A DNA stretch of 64,000 nt from Candidatus Delongbacteria bacterium. GTDB taxonomy: Bacteria; UBA4055. The notes beneath the pieces were generated by a model, which was given only the letters and a program-made list of their open reading frames with translations, was not told the origin of the DNA and did not search any database. Below, piece by piece: positions 3,371 to 60,020 of this stretch. Where the stretch lies: the NCBI GenBank assembly GCA_016937995.1, contig JAFGVM010000057.1, positions 17,526-81,525 on the forward strand, given 5' to 3'. Each line of letters begins with the position of its first letter. Position 1 is the stretch's first letter. Both the position numbers and the translations under genes were made by a program.

Positions 3371-4651
3371 ATGAATATTTTAGTAATAGGTTCAGGCGGG
3401 AGAGAACATTCTATACTAAAAAAACTATCAGAGAGCAAAAAAGTAAGCAGGTTATATTGTTTGCCGGGTAATGCCGGGACATCAGAACTGGCTGAAAATA
3501 TTGGATCACAGTTTATGGCTCAGGATAAGTTAATTGAATTTGTAAAGAACAATTCAATTGATCTGACCGTGATAGGACCGGAACAACCATTGATAGAAGG
3601 TTATGCAGACCGGTTCATAAAAGAGGGGCTCAATGTATTCGGTCCGGAAAGTAAAGCAGCTGTTATAGAAGGCAGTAAAGCATTCTCTAAAGATCTGATG
3701 CACAAATATAATATACCTACAGCAAATTATAAAAATTTTACAGATTACGATCAAGCAAAAGAATATCTGTCTAAACAAACTGTTCCTATTGTGATCAAGG
3801 TAAGCGGAATAGCAGCAGGAAAGGGTGCGATAGTGTGTTTGACCAGAGAAGAAGCTGAAAAGACATTAAAAAGTATGATGGTGGACAAAGAATTCGGAGA
3901 AGCAGGTGATGAGGTAGTTATCGAAGAGTTCTTAACCGGAGAAGAGGCATCAATTTTTGCAGTATCTGACGGGAATTATTATAAAATACTTCCAACAGCA
4001 CAGGACCATAAAGCTATCTTTGATGGGGATAAAGGGCCTAATACAGGGGGAATGGGAAGTTACTCACCTGCTCCTATTATAAATGATGAATTAATGGAAG
4101 ATATACAAAAAAGTATTATTGCCCCTACATTTGATGCTATGAAAAGCGAAAACAGAACCTACAAGGGAGTTCTGTTTGTTGGATTAATGATCACCGGGGA
4201 AGGTCCAAAAGTGATAGAATATAACTGCCGTTTCGGTGATCCGGAAACACAGGTCATATTACCGAAGTATGACGGTGATCTTGCAGAGCTGTTAATGGAA
4301 GCAGCAACATCCAAATTTACAGGCAATGAGATATTGCCTGCAAAAAATGAGCATTATTTATGTCTGGTCTTAGCATCAGGTGGATATCCGTCTTCATATG
4401 TTAAAGGTTATACAATAGATGGTTTGGATCGTAGAGATGAAAATACAAGTGTTATCCATGCAGGAACAAAAGTAGAAAATGAAAAAATTGTGACTTCCGG
4501 AGGAAGAGTTCTGGGTATTGTATCAAGAGGAAATACTTTGAAGGAAGCTAAGGAAAGATCATACAATTTTGCTGATCAAATAAAATTTAAAGATAAATAC
4601 TGCAGAAATGATATCGGGGATAAAGGTATTAACAGGTATGATAATAAATAG
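3371..4651 (+). CDS. purD: Phosphoribosylamine--glycine ligase (GAR synthetase)
   Basis: The 426-aa ATP-grasp enzyme of purine synthesis joins glycine to phosphoribosylamine. Seen: the N-terminal GSGGREHSI motif, GPEQPLIEGY, the ATP-grasp core with KVSGIAAGKGAIVC, and the family signature EYNCRFGDPETQVILP near residue 280. A C-terminal domain with ASGGYPSSY follows. Length is normal. It is apparently transcribed alone between the two tonB genes; no other pur gene lies nearby. Confidence 0.97.
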   Translation: MNILVIGSGGREHSILKKLSESKKVSRLYCLPGNAGTSELAENIGSQFMAQDKLIEFVKNNSIDLTVIGPEQPLIEGYADRFIKEGLNVFGPESKAAVIEGSKAFSKDLMHKYNIPTANYKNFTDYDQAKEYLSKQTVPIVIKVSGIAAGKGAIVCLTREEAEKTLKSMMVDKEFGEAGDEVVIEEFLTGEEASIFAVSDGNYYKILPTAQDHKAIFDGDKGPNTGGMGSYSPAPIINDELMEDIQKSIIAPTFDAMKSENRTYKGVLFVGLMITGEGPKVIEYNCRFGDPETQVILPKYDGDLAELLMEAATSKFTGNEILPAKNEHYLCLVLASGGYPSSYVKGYTIDGLDRRDENTSVIHAGTKVENEKIVTSGGRVLGIVSRGNTLKEAKERSYNFADQIKFKDKYCRNDIGDKGINRYDNK

Positions 4652-5710: not shown

Positions 5711-6616
5711 ATGAGAAGATTATTAGCGTTATTTATGATCATAATGTCTTTCAGTTTGTTTTCACAAAGTGATCTGTCCGCTGAAGAAATGGCAATGTTC
5801 AAAAGTAATGTTGTTGTTCCGTTGCCCTCAGAAATAATAATGGCATTGGACAGACTTTCCGAAGTAAATTGGAAAGAGATCGTTAGTTATGATTATACAG
5901 CTAACTATGCTGAAAATTATAAGATCGCATTAAACCTGGGTGTAAGGGTGGCTCAGGGATTTATAGCGATCCAGGCGGAAGATCGTAAAAACACGGGTGA
6001 AATGTTCAGTGTCAGTAGAGATCTTGCTGAAAATTTTGGAGCTAACAGCGAGATGTTCATAGATAAAGACCAGATATCTAACCTTCTGAATGAAGGTAAG
6101 TGGATGGATCTAAGAGGGATACTTGACGGTATTCATTTAGAGATAAAAGTGGAAATGAAAAAATATGATCCTGATTATGTTGCTTTAGCTAGTGTTGGTG
6201 GTTGGATCGAAGGTTTGGAAGTTGTTTCAAAAGCATTATTATCGAACTATTCAGAAGATGCATCCACAATATTGTATCAACCTGAATTGATAGAGCATCT
6301 TGCTTCAGAGATCCTTAGTATAAAGGATATTAATAAAAATAACCCTGAAGTAAAACTTATCAACGAAGAAATGCCTAAGATACAAAAATTATGCGATATG
6401 GGTTATGGTAATCCTATACCTGTTGAGAACATTAAACAGCTATCAGATATAAGCAGTAATCTGATAAAGGTTATTATTACCGAGACAAAAAAAGAAGAGA
6501 AAATTGACAAAGAAAAGGAAGAGAGTAAAATAGCAGGGTTTCCTGTAGCGGTATTTGTTGCATTATTAGTTGTTTTCTTTGTTATCCTGAAAAAGAAAAA
6601 GAAAGGAGGAAAATAA
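5711..6616 (+). CDS. Exported protein with C-terminal membrane anchor, unknown function
   Basis: The 301-aa product starts at 5711, where a perfect TGGAGGAAAA ribosome site precedes an ATG followed by a signal peptide (RRLLALFMIIMSFSLFS). The mature part is mainly alpha-helical. A hydrophobic helix near residues 275-293 is followed by a lysine-rich tail, so the protein is held in the inner membrane by its C-terminus, facing the periplasm. No catalytic or ligand motif is recognised. It overlaps the next gene by one base (TAATG), so the two are translationally coupled and probably function together. Confidence 0.7.
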   Translation: MRRLLALFMIIMSFSLFSQSDLSAEEMAMFKSNVVVPLPSEIIMALDRLSEVNWKEIVSYDYTANYAENYKIALNLGVRVAQGFIAIQAEDRKNTGEMFSVSRDLAENFGANSEMFIDKDQISNLLNEGKWMDLRGILDGIHLEIKVEMKKYDPDYVALASVGGWIEGLEVVSKALLSNYSEDASTILYQPELIEHLASEILSIKDINKNNPEVKLINEEMPKIQKLCDMGYGNPIPVENIKQLSDISSNLIKVIITETKKEEKIDKEKEESKIAGFPVAVFVALLVVFFVILKKKKKGGK

Positions 6617-8527: not shown

Positions 8528-10402
8528 ATGAAAAAATATTTTACAACACCAATATATTATGTAAATGGAAAACCTCATCTCGGACATGCATATACAACAA
8601 TTCTGACGGATGCTTTTACAAAATATTATAAGCTTTTTGGATATGATACAAAATTCATCACAGGAGTTGATGAACACGGTCAGAAAGTTTATGAAGCTGC
8701 AGTCAAAATGGGAATGACCCCAAAAGAATATGTTGATGGTCTTATACCTGCCTTCACACAATTATTTGAAAAATGTGATATTGACTATGATATTTTCTAT
8801 AGAACTACGAATGAAAAACATTACAAAAAAGTACAGACTATCCTTCAAGGTTTGTACGATAAAGGTGATATTTATAAGGATCATTACGAAGGTCAGTATT
8901 GTACTACCTGTGAAACATTCGTGACTGATAAAGACCTTATTGACGAAAAATGTCCGGAATGCGGAAAGGAGACTACCTTATTAAAGGAGGAGAATTATTT
9001 CTTTAATATGGCTAAATATGCTGAGGAGTATGAAAAATATATTAATGAAAGGGATGATTTTATCTATCCGAAATTCCGAAAGAATGAGGTACTCGGAATA
9101 TTAAAAAAGGGTCTGAATCCACTCTGTATTTCAAGAAAAAAAGAAAAAATGCCATGGGGTATACCATTACCTTTCGATGATCAATTTGTAACCTACGTTT
9201 GGTTCGATGCGCTTACGAACTACACGAATGGTATTGGATATCTGGAGGATGAAGATAAATTCAATGCCTATTGGCCTACTACAACGCATATGATGGCAAA
9301 GGATATACTTCTTCAACATACGATCTATTGGCCTACAATGCTGCTGGCAATGGGTGTAGAACTTCCCAAGAGTATGCTTATTCACGGATGGTGGATGGGA
9401 GAGGGTGGTAAAAAGATGAGTAAATCACTCGGAAATGTGATCGATCCGACAGAACTTATTGATACTTACGGTTCGTCATCTTTCAGATTCTATGTTCTCA
9501 GAGAGATGTCCTTAGGGCATGATGGAGTATTTACAAAAGAATTCTTCATCAACAGACATAATACTGAACTTGCAAATGACTTCGGAAATCTTTTAAACAG
9601 AGCAAGTCATATGATAGCAAAGAATTTTGAAAGTAAGATCCCTGAGTGTAATAAAAAAACTGAATTCTGCGGCCCATTTATTAATGAATTCAATGATTTG
9701 ATGAAAACGGTAGAACCGCTTATATATGACTTTGAGCTTAACAAGGCTCTTGATAACATCATGAGAATGATCAGGAATACAAATAAATACATGGAAGATA
9801 CAGCACCATGGAAACTGATCAAAGAAGATAAAGAGCTTTGCGGTTCGGTTCTGTATAATGCTCTTGAATCAGTGAGAATTACAAGTTTATTGCTTTCTCC
9901 GGTAATACCTAAGAAATTTGAAGAGATAAAAGATATTTTTAAAGGTGATCTGGATATGACTTTGGAATATGGGAAACTTGAACCAGGTAAGAAGATCAAT
10001 AAAGCTGTTTCTCTGTTCCCTAAGATAGACAAAGAAAAGGAAGAGAAAAAGGAACCGGTAAAAGTTGTAGATGATAATCTGATCGGAATAGAAGATTTCG
10101 GTAAAGTTGAGATAAAGACAGGTAAGATCATTAAATCTGATAATGTTGAAGGCAGTGATAGATTGTTATTGACCGAAGTTGATCTTGGGAATGGTGATAT
10201 CAGGCAGATCGTTGCAGGGATAGCAAAATTTTATCACCCTGAAGATATTTTGAATAAACATATTCTGGTTGCTTCAAATCTTAAACCTGTTACTATTATG
10301 GGTTTTGAGAGTCAGGGAATGTTACTTTCTGTTAAGTCAGGGAAAAATCTTAGACTGGTTGAGGTTGATCCGGAGTTGTCGCTCGGCAAGAAATTAGTTT
10401 AA
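8528..10402 (+). CDS. metG: Methionyl-tRNA synthetase with C-terminal tRNA-binding domain
   Basis: The 624-aa class I synthetase charges tRNA-Met. Seen: the HIGH-type motif PHLGHAY near residue 17, a zinc knuckle CTTC...CPECG near 124-142, and KMSKS in GGKKMSKSLGN near 295. The alpha-helical anticodon domain follows. After a charged linker (about 495-520) there is a C-terminal EMAP/Trbp111-type OB domain (IEDFGKVEIKTGKI, QIVAGIA, ESQGMLLS) that aids dimerisation and tRNA binding. Length and architecture are normal for the long bacterial form. It has its own promoter and terminator. Confidence 0.97.
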   Translation: MKKYFTTPIYYVNGKPHLGHAYTTILTDAFTKYYKLFGYDTKFITGVDEHGQKVYEAAVKMGMTPKEYVDGLIPAFTQLFEKCDIDYDIFYRTTNEKHYKKVQTILQGLYDKGDIYKDHYEGQYCTTCETFVTDKDLIDEKCPECGKETTLLKEENYFFNMAKYAEEYEKYINERDDFIYPKFRKNEVLGILKKGLNPLCISRKKEKMPWGIPLPFDDQFVTYVWFDALTNYTNGIGYLEDEDKFNAYWPTTTHMMAKDILLQHTIYWPTMLLAMGVELPKSMLIHGWWMGEGGKKMSKSLGNVIDPTELIDTYGSSSFRFYVLREMSLGHDGVFTKEFFINRHNTELANDFGNLLNRASHMIAKNFESKIPECNKKTEFCGPFINEFNDLMKTVEPLIYDFELNKALDNIMRMIRNTNKYMEDTAPWKLIKEDKELCGSVLYNALESVRITSLLLSPVIPKKFEEIKDIFKGDLDMTLEYGKLEPGKKINKAVSLFPKIDKEKEEKKEPVKVVDDNLIGIEDFGKVEIKTGKIIKSDNVEGSDRLLLTEVDLGNGDIRQIVAGIAKFYHPEDILNKHILVASNLKPVTIMGFESQGMLLSVKSGKNLRLVEVDPELSLGKKLV

Positions 10403-40300: not shown

Positions 40301-40423
40301 CAGACTGTTGAAAAGCTTCGCATATCTTCATCCCAATCATATTTCTTTTCATGTCGCTTGGGTCATACAAGCTCAATTAAGAAATAAATTTGCTCTTTGA
40401 TCTGCTTGTTTTTGAACAGTCTG
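40301..40423 (+). repeat. Structured intergenic element, copy C
   Basis: This 123-nt foldback is bounded by a perfect 9-bp inverted repeat CAGACTGTT / AACAGTCTG. A middle stem (CAATCATATTT with AAATAAATTTG, imperfect) and an inner hairpin GCTTG-GGTCATA-CAAGC lie inside. It is the divergent copy of the elements at 49552 and 59848, sharing GTCGCTTGGGTC with the GTCACTTAGGTC of copy A. It occupies half of the divergent gap between hprK and folE (40276-40582), in which no other gene is seen. Confidence 0.65.
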
Positions 40424-40582
40424 TGCTCATTTTGACAAACTCGATGCAATATGTCGAACACTGTCCTTATAAATTTAAGTAACATTCAGTAGTATAACAA
40501 TAAAAATATATTGGGTAAACGGATCATTTTGTATTATCTTACGGGTTGTATTTGGTTTAATAATGAATGTGAGAAATATATC

Positions 40583-48440: not shown

Positions 48441-49556
48441 ATGAAACTCAGAAAAATTATTATCATGCTGGTAGTTTTCAGCATTACAATGATCTACGCA
48501 CAGGCAAGTCAATATTCACATGACCACAATGTAACTGAAGTTGAAGTCAGTGGATACGGCTCATCCGTTCAGGTTGCTATTCAGGCAGCACAAAGAGAAG
48601 CTATATCAACTGCAATAGGTACATTTTTGACATCTGAGACAGAAATGCAGAATTACATGACAGTCAAAGACAAGATCCTTTCAAAAAGTGAAGGATTTGT
48701 AAAGTCCTTTGATGTGATCGACAGAGTAAAAGAAGCTGACGGTGGATGGACAGTAACAATAAAAGCAGCAGTTGCTAAAGATATGATCCTGACGGACCTT
48801 GAAGCACTGGGTGTTCTTTTATCTCAGCTGGATAATCCTTCAATAGTAGTTTTCTACGCACCGAAAGGAGAGCAGTATCATCCAAGATATACTGAACAGG
48901 CTATCAATCAGATCAATCAGTATTTTACAACATTCAGGTATGATGTGTATGATCTTGATCAATTGAACGCTATGATAGAAGATGATATCTCTATGAAAGA
49001 AGTCGGGTTGAACGAAGAAGTATCGATGGCTGAAATTTTGGCAAAGAAATTGAAATCAGATATTTATGTAACTGTAGCACTTATGCTGGAAGACCTAGGT
49101 AACGGTAAAAAGAAAGCTAAAGCTACTGCTAAGATATTCAATGCTTCAACAGCAAAATTACTGGGTGTACAGAACGGATACAGTGACGAGATCTATGGAA
49201 ATAACACTGCTCAGGATGCAAATATTGATCAGGCTGTTAAAAAACTTATGCCGCTTATTATGAACCAGGTTAAAGGTTACTGGAAACTTCAGCTGGATAA
49301 AGGTAAGCAGTACGTAATCATGTTCAGTAAACTTCCTAAAGGGAGAAAAGTTAAGAAGGCAATTACTGACGTTCTGTCTTCAGAGGCAAAAGAAATAAAG
49401 AAAGTTTCGACTACTGAATATCAGGTTTGGATCAGCGGTTCTATCGACGATTATATTGATGCAATCGGTGACGGAGTTCAAAATCAGATCTATGAAGGTA
49501 AGGATTTTGATTATGAGAATAGGGGAGACAGGATAAACATTTTCCCAGTGGAATAA
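48441..49556 (+). CDS. FlgT/LPP20-like exported protein (copy 1)
   Basis: The 371-aa protein has a signal peptide (about 1-20). The first domain, VTEVEVSGYGSSVQVAIQAAQREAISTAIGTFLTSETEMQNYMTVKDKILSKSEGFVKSFDVI (about 30-90), is the FlgT N-terminal/LPP20 pattern. A second domain (about 125-260) reads LDNPSIVVFYAPKGEQYHPRYTEQAINQINQYF and KSDIYVTVALMLEDLGNGKKKAKATAKIF. There is no lipobox. A close paralogue lies at 55734. No flagellar genes are in the window, so an envelope role unrelated to flagella is likely. Confidence 0.75.
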   Translation: MKLRKIIIMLVVFSITMIYAQASQYSHDHNVTEVEVSGYGSSVQVAIQAAQREAISTAIGTFLTSETEMQNYMTVKDKILSKSEGFVKSFDVIDRVKEADGGWTVTIKAAVAKDMILTDLEALGVLLSQLDNPSIVVFYAPKGEQYHPRYTEQAINQINQYFTTFRYDVYDLDQLNAMIEDDISMKEVGLNEEVSMAEILAKKLKSDIYVTVALMLEDLGNGKKKAKATAKIFNASTAKLLGVQNGYSDEIYGNNTAQDANIDQAVKKLMPLIMNQVKGYWKLQLDKGKQYVIMFSKLPKGRKVKKAITDVLSSEAKEIKKVSTTEYQVWISGSIDDYIDAIGDGVQNQIYEGKDFDYENRGDRINIFPVE

Positions 49557-49676
49557 TGTTAAAATCTTTGAATTTCTGCGTCAGATAGCTTTCCTTTTCG
49601 AAGTCACTTAGGTCTGACTAAGTTCCTTCTTAATTTAAGCCATCTTCCTTGAACTTCTTTGCTTTTAAACATTATT
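49552..49676 (+). repeat. Structured intergenic element, copy A
   Basis: This roughly 125-nt foldback starts at the stop codon of the FlgT-like gene. Outer arms: AATAATGTT-AAAA against TTTTAAACATTATT. Middle arms: AGATAGCTT against AAGCCATCT. Inner hairpin: ACTTAG-GTCTGA-CTAAGT. It is strongly similar to copy B at 59848 (shared CGAAGT.ACTTAG and TTCCTTGAA blocks) and more distantly to copy C at 40301. A conventional terminator follows it at 49692, so the element is probably in the 3' part of the transcript. Confidence 0.7.
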
Positions 49677-49691
49677 GTGTTTTTTGGAATG

Positions 49692-49718
49692 AGGGTGTAA
49701 TTTATTACGCCCTTTTTT
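49692..49718 (+). terminator. Terminator after the FlgT-like gene
   Basis: GGGTGTAA-TTTA-TTACGCCC followed by TTTTTT (one G-U pair). Confidence 0.85.
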
Positions 49719-50029: not shown

Positions 50030-50845
50030 ATGTTAAAGAAAATGACTGTTGCACTTTTTAGTGTGCTAATGATTATGTCCATCTTCACTGCTTGCACAGA
50101 TGAAAGTGATCCGGTAGCACCCGTAATTACGCCTGATGATACAATAATGTTAACTGTTGATGAAACTATTGATTCAACTTCTGCGTTTGAGTTCAAAGTA
50201 TCGACTGAAGATGTTACAAGAATCAAGATCTATTGGACGGAACTAGGAAGTGTTAATAATTCAGGTGAGACCGGAGATATTCAGGTATCAGTTTTAAAAA
50301 TGGATGGAGTTTCTCCGTATAAAATAATTGCAAATAGTAAAGATTTCATTAGAAAAGATAACAGTGAGATAGATGATCCTAAAGAAGTTTATGTTGATGC
50401 TGTCGAGGATACCCTGATAGTCAAAGTAGAACAAAAAACCGTACCTGGTACCTTCAAGCTCGTTGTCCAGAAAAATCCTGTTATTTTCTCTGTAAATGAT
50501 TCACTGATCGTTGATTCAGATATAAAAGATTATGAAGTATTCGTGAAAAATGCGGATAAAGCAATAATATACTGGCAGGAATTAGGTACATCTGAAGTGG
50601 GAAATGATAAAACTGCAAATGTTCAGGGGTCAGTTTACCAAATGGATTGGTTGACAGCTTACAAGCAGATCGAGAATGGTAAGGACTTTGAAGATAAAGA
50701 TAACAGCTCATGGGATAATCCTAAAGAAATCCTATTGGACAAAGGTGAGAATTTTATAAATGTAAGAATTGAAATGCTTGAGGATACAGGTGGTGTAATC
50801 GGTACATTCGGTCTGTTCGTTGTGGATACAAGTGATGAGGATTAG
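50030..50845 (+). CDS. Lipoprotein with two internal repeats, probable TonB-receptor partner
   Basis: The 271-aa protein has a lipoprotein signal with Cys22 (IMSIFTAC). Two homologous units follow: one with KIYWTELGS...VLKMDGVSPYKIIANSKDFIRKDNSEIDDPKEVYVDAVEDTLIVKVE (about 67-133), the second with IIYWQELGT...VYQMDWLTAYKQIENGKDFEDKDNSSWDNPKEILLDKGENFINVRIE (about 180-252). The family is not recognised. It overlaps the TonB-dependent receptor gene by 11 bases, so it is likely a surface ligand-binding lipoprotein for that receptor, as in SusD- or HmuY-type pairs. That is inference. Confidence 0.72.
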   Translation: MLKKMTVALFSVLMIMSIFTACTDESDPVAPVITPDDTIMLTVDETIDSTSAFEFKVSTEDVTRIKIYWTELGSVNNSGETGDIQVSVLKMDGVSPYKIIANSKDFIRKDNSEIDDPKEVYVDAVEDTLIVKVEQKTVPGTFKLVVQKNPVIFSVNDSLIVDSDIKDYEVFVKNADKAIIYWQELGTSEVGNDKTANVQGSVYQMDWLTAYKQIENGKDFEDKDNSSWDNPKEILLDKGENFINVRIEMLEDTGGVIGTFGLFVVDTSDED

Positions 50846-55733: not shown

Positions 55734-56948
55734 ATGAAGCTAAAAATGATATTTATTTTGATAACAATGTTACTTATATCTTCCTGTGTAACAGTAAAGC
55801 ATGTTTCACCAATGGAAAGGGATAAGGATAAACTTGAAGAATCACCTGTTGAAGAAGTGAAGGTCGAAGAGCAGAATCTTACCACCGGAAACAAGATCAG
55901 TCAGTATTCTCATGATCATAATATAACGGAAGTGGAAGCTCAGGGGATCGGAGTTGACAGAGAATCTGCGATCAAAGATGCTCAGAGAAATGCAATTACA
56001 ACTGCAATCGGTACATACCTTGTATCAGAGCAGGAAATGCAGAATTATATGACCGTTAAAGATGATATCCTTTCAAAGAGTGAAGGTTTTGTGAAAGCTT
56101 ATGATGTTATCGATCAGATGAGAGAAGCTGACGGGAGCTGGACTGTGACTATAAAAGCAGCTGTCACAAAAGATATCGTGATGAGCGATCTTGAGTCGTT
56201 GGGAATCCTTTTAGCACAGCTTGACAATCCATCTCTGGTTGTTTTCTACGCTCCAAAAGGAGTAAATTACGACAAAAGATATACTGAGCAGGCAATAAAT
56301 AATATTAATCAGTATTTTACTATCAACAGATACGATGTTTACGATCTTGAGCAATTGAATAAAATGATCGAAGATGACATTGCATTAAAAGAGATCGGTC
56401 TTGATGAAAATGTTACAATGGCTGAACTTCTGTCAAAGAAATTGAAAGCTGATATCTATGTTACAGTAGCAATAATGCTTGAAGACCTTGGGAACGGTAA
56501 AAAGAAAGCTAAAGCCACAGCTAAAATATTCAATTCTTCCACAGCTAAGCTTCTAGGTGTTCAGAACGGTTACAGTGATGAGATATGGGGGAATAATACA
56601 GCTTACGATGCAAATATAGACCAGGCTATCAAGAAACTTATGCCGATGATAATGAATCAGGTTAAAGGTTACTGGGTAGAACAGCTTGATAAGGGAAAGC
56701 AGTATATTCTAATGTTCAGTGATCTTCCTCAGGGAAGAGAGTACAAAAAGGCTCTATTCGATATCTTAGATACAACTGCAAGAGAAGTGAAGAAAGTTTC
56801 TTACGAAGAATATGTTATCTGGATCAGAAAGAATATTGATGAATATATCGATTCTATCGGTGATGCAATTCAAAAGCAGATATATGATGGTAAGGAATTC
56901 GATTATGAGAATAGGGGTGAGCGGATAAATATTTATTTGACGAAATAA
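55734..56948 (+). CDS. FlgT/LPP20-like lipoprotein (copy 2)
   Basis: The 404-aa paralogue of the protein at 48441 differs at the N-terminus: a lipoprotein signal ending ISSC (Cys17), then an acidic linker of about 40 residues before SQYSHDHNITEVEAQG. From there the two are largely identical: AQRNAITTAIGTYLVSEQEMQNYMTVKDDILSKSEGFVKAYDVID, LDNPSLVVFYAPKGVNYDKRYTEQAI and AKATAKIFNSSTAKLLGVQNGYSDEIWGNNTA. The only major change is that one copy is periplasmic and the other lipidated. It has a good AAAAGGAG site. A repeat copy follows its stop. Confidence 0.78.
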   Translation: MKLKMIFILITMLLISSCVTVKHVSPMERDKDKLEESPVEEVKVEEQNLTTGNKISQYSHDHNITEVEAQGIGVDRESAIKDAQRNAITTAIGTYLVSEQEMQNYMTVKDDILSKSEGFVKAYDVIDQMREADGSWTVTIKAAVTKDIVMSDLESLGILLAQLDNPSLVVFYAPKGVNYDKRYTEQAINNINQYFTINRYDVYDLEQLNKMIEDDIALKEIGLDENVTMAELLSKKLKADIYVTVAIMLEDLGNGKKKAKATAKIFNSSTAKLLGVQNGYSDEIWGNNTAYDANIDQAIKKLMPMIMNQVKGYWVEQLDKGKQYILMFSDLPQGREYKKALFDILDTTAREVKKVSYEEYVIWIRKNIDEYIDSIGDAIQKQIYDGKEFDYENRGERINIYLTK

Positions 56949-59310: not shown

Positions 59311-59847
59311 ATGGTTGATTTTTATATCGATGAAATTATTCGGGTTATGCATGAGAAAGCTGAGGATATGACGTATTATCTGCACAAAGAAACAGGTGAC
59401 ATTATATATATAGATGAAAACATCGCATCAGGGGTTGAAAAGGAGTATGATCAAACAACAACAGTCATTGAAGAATGGAGTTCAGATGTTGAGGATGATG
59501 ATATGTACCACGAAAAAATTTACTCACCTACTGATGAACTTGATGAGAAGGAATTAATCAAGAGAGTAAGATTTACCAAGCAGGACGATTATGAACCTAT
59601 TCCTACGGTTACAACAAGCGAAATGAAAAAGATCGTGGAAGAATATCTTGAGACTCAAACTGATTATGATGAAGATCTGAAAATGGCGATAATGACATCT
59701 ATAAAAAATATTCCATCTTTTGAAGAAATAGAAGAAACGTTACTAAAACATATTTCAGACAAAGAAAAGTGGAACAATTTTTATCAGGAAACCATTAAGA
59801 ACAGAGTTGTGAGCTGGTTGAAAGGATTAGGTTTCGAAGTTATGTAA
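59311..59847 (+). CDS. UPF0158-like protein
   Basis: The 178-aa acidic protein fits the UPF0158 pattern: an N-terminal IDEIIRVMHEKAEDMTYYLHKETGDIIYID, PIPTVTTSEMKKIVEEYLE, and the C-terminal KEKWNNFYQETIKNRVVSWLKGLGFE corresponding to EEWYAFRDEALREIAIEWC of the family. The function of UPF0158 is unknown. It has its own promoter. The structured element copy B starts at its stop codon. Confidence 0.72.
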   Translation: MVDFYIDEIIRVMHEKAEDMTYYLHKETGDIIYIDENIASGVEKEYDQTTTVIEEWSSDVEDDDMYHEKIYSPTDELDEKELIKRVRFTKQDDYEPIPTVTTSEMKKIVEEYLETQTDYDEDLKMAIMTSIKNIPSFEEIEETLLKHISDKEKWNNFYQETIKNRVVSWLKGLGFEVM

Positions 59848-59970
59848 TAATTTGTTGAACTTTGAACTTCTACACAAGATCGGTTTTCTCTCGAAGTAAC
59901 TTAGTGTTCCTAAGCTCTTTCTTGATAAAGTCCGATTTTCCTTGAATATTTTTGTTTATTAGCATTTTTT
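59848..59970 (+). repeat. Structured intergenic element, copy B
   Basis: It directly follows the stop codon of the UPF0158-like gene. Central part: CTCGAAGTAACTTAGTGTT then CCTAAGCTCTTTCTTG, homologous to copy A (TTCGAAGTCACTTAGGTC...CTAAGTTCCTTCTTA). Stems: ATCGG with CCGAT (middle) and CTTAG-TGTTC-CTAAG (inner). As in copy A, a conventional terminator follows at 59995. Confidence 0.7.
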
Positions 59971-59994: not shown

Positions 59995-60020
59995 AAAAGG
60001 GAGTGGTCCCTTTTTTTTTT
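59995..60020 (+). terminator. Terminator after copy B
   Basis: AAAGGGA-GTGG-TCCCTTT followed by a long T run (about ten). Confidence 0.85.

Follow-up and report, generated by a model that had tools for sequence, protein, structure and literature searches.

Three elements in the analysed window (the whole stretch of 64,000 nt) belonged to a family of covarying imperfect palindromes of about 113 nt (a 113-position model plus outer arms). Judged from sequence comparison, this Delongbacteria family is a divergent branch of ERIC (RU-1/IRU). We consider it somewhat probable that its members are ERIC-type dispersed palindromes which are non-autonomous and mobile, and which act via one DNA strand.

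Structure of the family and copies in the window

BLAST of the home genome (the one containing the window) with copy A alone gave ten more clear copies. Three covariance models were built: R1 from 14 aligned home-genome copies, with the paired layout on the strand read in the first-pass annotation (hereafter the annotated strand); R2 from a diverse set of 44 copies, read on the complement; and R3, an ERIC-only model, from nine ERIC-type copies. Copies A, B and C, at the places where the first-pass annotation had located them, were the sole good matches of R1 in the 64-kb window and were each matched at full length, and the covariance-model search of the home genome added about 30 further full-length copies to this trio. 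The nested layout with compensatory base changes, described at first from three copies, was borne out by the larger alignments. In the R1 alignment (14 copies), 83.9% of cells were paired versus 64.7% in shuffles, 86 cells carried double changes versus 29.5, and 0 of 500 shuffles were as high on any measure, double changes being found in 29 of the 36 pairs. The R2 alignment (44 copies) contained 344 double-change cells versus 124 in shuffles.

Copy A (49552-49676, better-folding strand -, covariance-model core 49557-49670) adjoined the stop codon of the gene directly upstream (48441-49556, +; 371 aa, without Pfam match), which is taken in by the outer arms AATAATGTT/AACATTATT of the element. 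Close relatives of this gene in named records were from Candidatus Delongbacteria. Copy B (59848-59970, core 59851-59963, with - as the better-folding strand of the family) followed a gene encoding a 178-aa UPF0158 protein (59311-59847, +), and an element was also found 3' of the orthologue of this gene in relative G002 (L098). Both copies had been annotated as beginning at a stop codon, which was exact for A, while B started 3 nt after the stop; the separate intrinsic terminators reported downstream were both present (49691-49714 for A and 59995-60014 for B, both +). Copy C (40301-40430, core 40307-40418, likewise - as the better-folding strand of the family), of the subtype CAGACTGTT...AACAGTCTG, was located between divergent genes, 3' of neither, and had no terminator. 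The suggested 3'-UTR position applied to A, B and the many copies whose start is no more than about 8 nt from a stop codon; it failed for C and wherever an element is bordered by two genes of opposite direction.

Paralogous genes were found in the window at 48441-49556 and 55734-56948, with an element after the first only. After position 3609 of locus L163, a paralogue of the copy-A gene was followed by a cut-off left arm (AATAATGCTAAAATCTATG) fused to a terminator, probably the remnant of an element. A Molybdenum/tungsten cofactor riboswitch (RF01055; 49782-49900, +; 58 bits, E 2e-11) was encoded between the copy-A terminator and the gene starting at 50030.

The folding strand

The constrained molecule is the strand that complements the gene usually lying upstream. 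Paired columns read on the annotated strand contained 205 A.C versus 70 G.U, with A.C exceeding G.U in 79 sequences and G.U exceeding A.C in 11; these A.C turn into G.U on the complement, which also folded better. The better fold was on the complement in 106 of 111 copies and, outside Delongbacteria, in 18 of 18, while the consensus energy was -13.4 kcal/mol on the complement versus -2.2 kcal/mol on the annotated strand. Compared with dinucleotide shuffles, the + strand gave z-scores of -4.1 for copy A and -5.6 for copy C, and a weaker one (-0.95) for copy B; copy C taken singly had its lower energy on the + strand, unlike the family. Covariance-model bit scores cannot alone decide the strand, R1 on the + strand scoring A and B above R2 on the - strand.

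The structured multi-stem family with conserved pairing described in the first-pass annotation was supported. A plain sense-strand 3'-UTR RNA was disfavoured, as it is the complement that folds and covaries. An alternative is a non-coding RNA on the complement strand, whose internal loops (tandem G.A beside a conserved G.U) would be an RNA- or protein-binding motif. It would account for the G.U tolerance of the covariation on that strand, including the closing pair of the apical stem (G.U in 30, G-C in 10 and A-U in 4 of 44 copies), but appears improbable: inspection revealed no conserved promoter beside the copies, transcription would oppose the replication fork at all 29 of the 29 home-genome copies, and none of the family copies tested matched Rfam at gathering score, for which reason a known Rfam RNA was also rejected.

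The CGTC tag of REPs lies on the non-folding strand and was discarded as a coincidence. In the G000 groEL copy (L075, 1501-1614), the central hairpin was inverted relative to the remaining element, so that the model matched both strands; the arrangement resembles an inversion produced by template switching in a palindrome.

Relationship to ERIC and other palindromic repeats

ERIC copies in enterobacterial provirus contigs were weakly matched by R2 (E 2e-4 to 0.03), at loci chosen beforehand by means of DNA patterns taken from the Delongbacteria family. The matched loci contained the published ERIC1R/ERIC2 primer sequences, and matched plasmid or chromosome records of Citrobacter, Klebsiella, Escherichia, Salmonella and Rahnella. 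Reciprocally, R3 yielded 17 matches at E<=1 over 500 kb of sequence that contained the Delongbacteria-type family, 16 of them coinciding with known copies in matching strand orientation and the seventeenth 11 nt beside a G307 copy. E-values tying the two models were modest (best 3e-6), and at E<=1 R3 did not reach copies A, B and C, which are linked through other members of the same genome (e.g., L048, L055, L052). It is from these reciprocal matches, and from the ERIC primers, that the family is assigned to a divergent ERIC branch.

ERIC is about 127 bp long, with 7-bp terminal repeats and a short TA-type target duplication. Both groups are dispersed, intergenic imperfect palindromes (~113-127 bp) sharing three blocks on the model strand: the flanking AAGGMGG and CAACGCA, whose spacing is the same in both groups, and the central core GGAGCNTAN..NTANGTGAC, which carries the ERIC1R/ERIC2 region. 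The complement-equivalent strand folded better in 9 of 9 ERIC copies, which is the same strand as in the Delongbacteria family. In contrast, the stems of the latter were almost wholly different in sequence, with other paired bases in place of the ERIC CCCC/GGGG arm, and direct repeats of a terminator hairpin occurred in one Delongbacteria genome. The family also departed from the ERIC host range (enterobacteria, Vibrio), being found in Delongbacteria, four unrelated genomes and phage contigs, a difference in distribution and not in structure.

Other known palindromes share some of these features. YPAL elements are placed after stop codons and at terminators. Like the present family, these RU-2 repeats of Yersinia are palindromic, mobile insertions for which both occupied and empty sites are described, and they may affect transcripts from upstream (PMC2229807), but they are set apart by description (168 bp, other sequence), and the ERIC primer sequences overturned YPAL as the identity of the enterobacterial matches. 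REPs and REPINs are also extragenic, dispersed and non-autonomous palindromes, whereas they are RAYT-linked and REPs measure 20-40 bp, against about 113 bp and several stems here, which supports the first-pass view that the elements are not ordinary REPs. A Y1/RAYT-driven REP was rejected on the length of 113 and on G004, which had 79 copies and no Y1_Tnp.

Distribution among genomes and phages

Copies were counted with R2 in 386 genomes, 373 of them outside this family. The home genome harbored about 35 copies, its two congeners 7 and 19, G004 79 and G007 10, while six more relatives had 1-3 (3 in G005, 1 in G008) and two had none; 10 of the 12 Delongbacteria relatives thus carried between 1 and 79 copies each. 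Full-length copies were present in 4 of the 373 unrelated genomes (G259, nine scored; G143, 2; G307, 2; G190, 1). IMG/VR phage contigs also carried the family: L327 displayed copies at 5929-6041 and 9980-10092, one directly after the protease/major capsid gene and one after the tail sheath gene, and L338 a copy (4277-4385) directly after the major capsid gene. At four G259 loci (L312, L314, L317, L310), the element was followed by another repeat (CGTCACTGCGAGG...), and L312 contained two copies 14 nt apart.

Orientation relative to replication

The direction of replication was deduced from the skew of draft contigs, after dividing third-position GC skew into a coding component and a replication component. 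The annotated strand was, in the home genome, the leading-strand sense in 17 of 17 contigs and 29 of 29 copies, although just 58% of coding bases were co-directional with replication; such a polarity has a chance of about 2e-7 if orientation merely tracked genes. Copies between two opposite genes kept the same replication orientation. Agreement in a first set of contigs was 12 of 12, and with more contigs it reached the 17 of 17 of the home genome and weakened in G004, where the orientation was weakly kept (14 of 25 contigs, 28 of 43 copies). The G004 copies, which are younger, were the most alike, and the polarity looks like selection, a filter acting after insertion and not a rule of insertion. 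In the four unrelated genomes, the sign of whole-window GC skew agreed in 13 of 14 windows, but gene strand confounds this measure, and the replication component, once separated out, was less clear.

A host replication or repair signal could also be envisaged, in which hairpins of fixed polarity, carried by the leading-strand template and kept near highly transcribed genes, would aid restart or repriming of stalled forks. The home genome's strict polarity, together with the conserved positions beside groEL, 5S and tRNA genes, would suit such a role; the range from 0 to 79 copies among close relatives, the weak polarity in G004 and the lack of a known protein partner would not, and it is given a low probability.

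The geometry recalls the attC sites of chromosomal integrons, in which the recombining strand lies on the leading-strand template, keeping that strand unfolded (PMC11023631). Like attC sites, which follow ORFs and have a folding bottom strand on the leading-strand template (PMC11023631), the elements are ORF-adjacent and fold on the complement strand in the same replication geometry. Membership in integron-type attC sites or in a cassette system is however very improbable: attC boxes (RYYYAAC / GTTRRRY) were found in 0 of 112 copies, and these missing R boxes refute attC membership, most carriers lacked an integrase, copies came and went independently of their ORFs, and their neighbours were core genes whose synteny is stable. 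Integrases of integrons scored above the curated cut-off in G005 (C68) and G008 (C155) only, two element-poor Delongbacteria (3 and 1 copies).

Neighbouring genes and conserved positions

Favoured sites were directly after stop codons, terminators, and tRNA or 5S genes. In the home genome and its close relatives, many copies started between -8 and +6 nt from the upstream stop codon, which makes the stop codon itself a pairing partner of the outer arm. The core genes lying upstream included citF, dksA, rpoN, a gyrB-type gene, dnaB and the genes for ribosomal protein S9, OAD beta and ATP synthase c, among others. Copies followed 5S rRNA in G007, G012 (read from the flank) and G259, and tRNA genes in several genomes.

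A copy was located 3' of groEL in six genomes (G000, G002, G005, G006, G008 and G011); at this position G003 had a remnant, G007, G010 and G012 had none, and G004 had one reversed copy only, about 200 nt downstream. The groEL copies shared an apical CYTGC stem, while their outer stems differed yet stayed paired. The common apical stem makes descent from one ancestral copy more likely than repeated insertion. As they have been kept for so long, some of the old copies (groEL, 5S, tRNA) probably serve the host as well. To our knowledge, neither strict replication polarity nor groEL conservation has been described for any ERIC.

The position of many copies at -8 to +6 nt from stop codons, and neighbours such as the genes for groEL, ribosomal protein S9, 5S rRNA and tRNA or, in phages, for capsid and tail sheath, would also suit a sense-strand 3'-UTR RNA whose hairpin protects or destabilises the upstream mRNA, mobility being secondary. 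ERICs are reported to be co-transcribed, with an orientation-dependent effect on upstream mRNA, and in Yersinia to affect mRNA stability (PMC2229807), and a role of the present family in mRNA stability is, by analogy, possible. As an explanation of the whole family, a sense-strand RNA is nonetheless unlikely, because the sense strand folds poorly and the complement covaries with G.U tolerance, because orientation in the home genome tracks replication and not transcription, even between two opposite genes, and because copy C and several more are not 3' of a gene.

Mobility and proposed mechanism

The clearest recent spread was observed in G004. About 10 of its 41 copies examined had the local terminator hairpin repeated directly on both sides (17-30 nt), among them L136, L140, L142, L145, L151 and L152, as well as L090, where the repeats were longer. 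In most of these copies the left repeat ended 6 nt before the model. The pattern suggests that elements insert at terminators and duplicate the hairpin, possibly as an unusual target duplication; outer arms were variable, and the hairpin repeats differ from a short TA duplication. In a relative, the copy-A site was empty (L156; upstream protein 88% identical), with an ambiguous junction. Copies appeared and vanished without their ORFs.

The non-autonomous mobile foldback, one of the options left by the first-pass annotation, is supported by the ERIC homology, the copy numbers of 0-79 among relatives, the empty A site, and the recent expansion and hairpin-flanked copies of G004, whose weak polarity among most-alike copies also fits selection after insertion. 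Against mobility, no mobilising enzyme was found in G004 among those sought (neither Y1 transposase nor integron integrase above cut-off, in the genome with most copies), and terminator-hairpin repeats flanked just a quarter of the copies of this one genome. A purely selfish element would not easily account for the compensated groEL structure across genera. An autonomous parent with ORFs between half-elements was also considered in G004, where the six half-matches were truncated remnants.

For a mobile, single-strand DNA element of this type, the following course may be proposed. The element would be moved in trans by a putative enzyme acting on the hairpin of one DNA strand. Copies with the hairpin strand on the lagging-strand template would be lost or excised, and the element would survive where its reactive strand is kept quiet. 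Some copies could later have been kept by the host, the benefit being, most simply, to set the stability or the 3' end of the adjoining transcript.

More tentatively, and at less than even chances, ERIC itself might belong, as a single branch, to an old family of strand-specific hairpins that crosses phyla, with a reactive strand that complements the usual upstream gene and an orientation set by replication. Its long-kept groEL, 5S and tRNA copies would then serve the host where replication and transcription meet. Genotyping and fingerprinting of gut bacteria have relied on ERIC for decades, while its origin, mobility and function are unsettled. The strand call, the replication-linked orientation and the conserved groEL copy were unexpected. 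A deep cross-phylum family with strong covariation provides a comparative handle on the constrained parts (three internal-loop blocks), the strand and the replication orientation, and makes two old questions directly testable, namely whether ERIC acts as RNA or as single-stranded DNA, and by what it is moved.

At loci L102 and L103 (G007 and G002), elements were gained or lost after single genes within a conserved row encoding a PLP aminotransferase, an Asp racemase, a branched-chain aminotransferase and an acetyltransferase.
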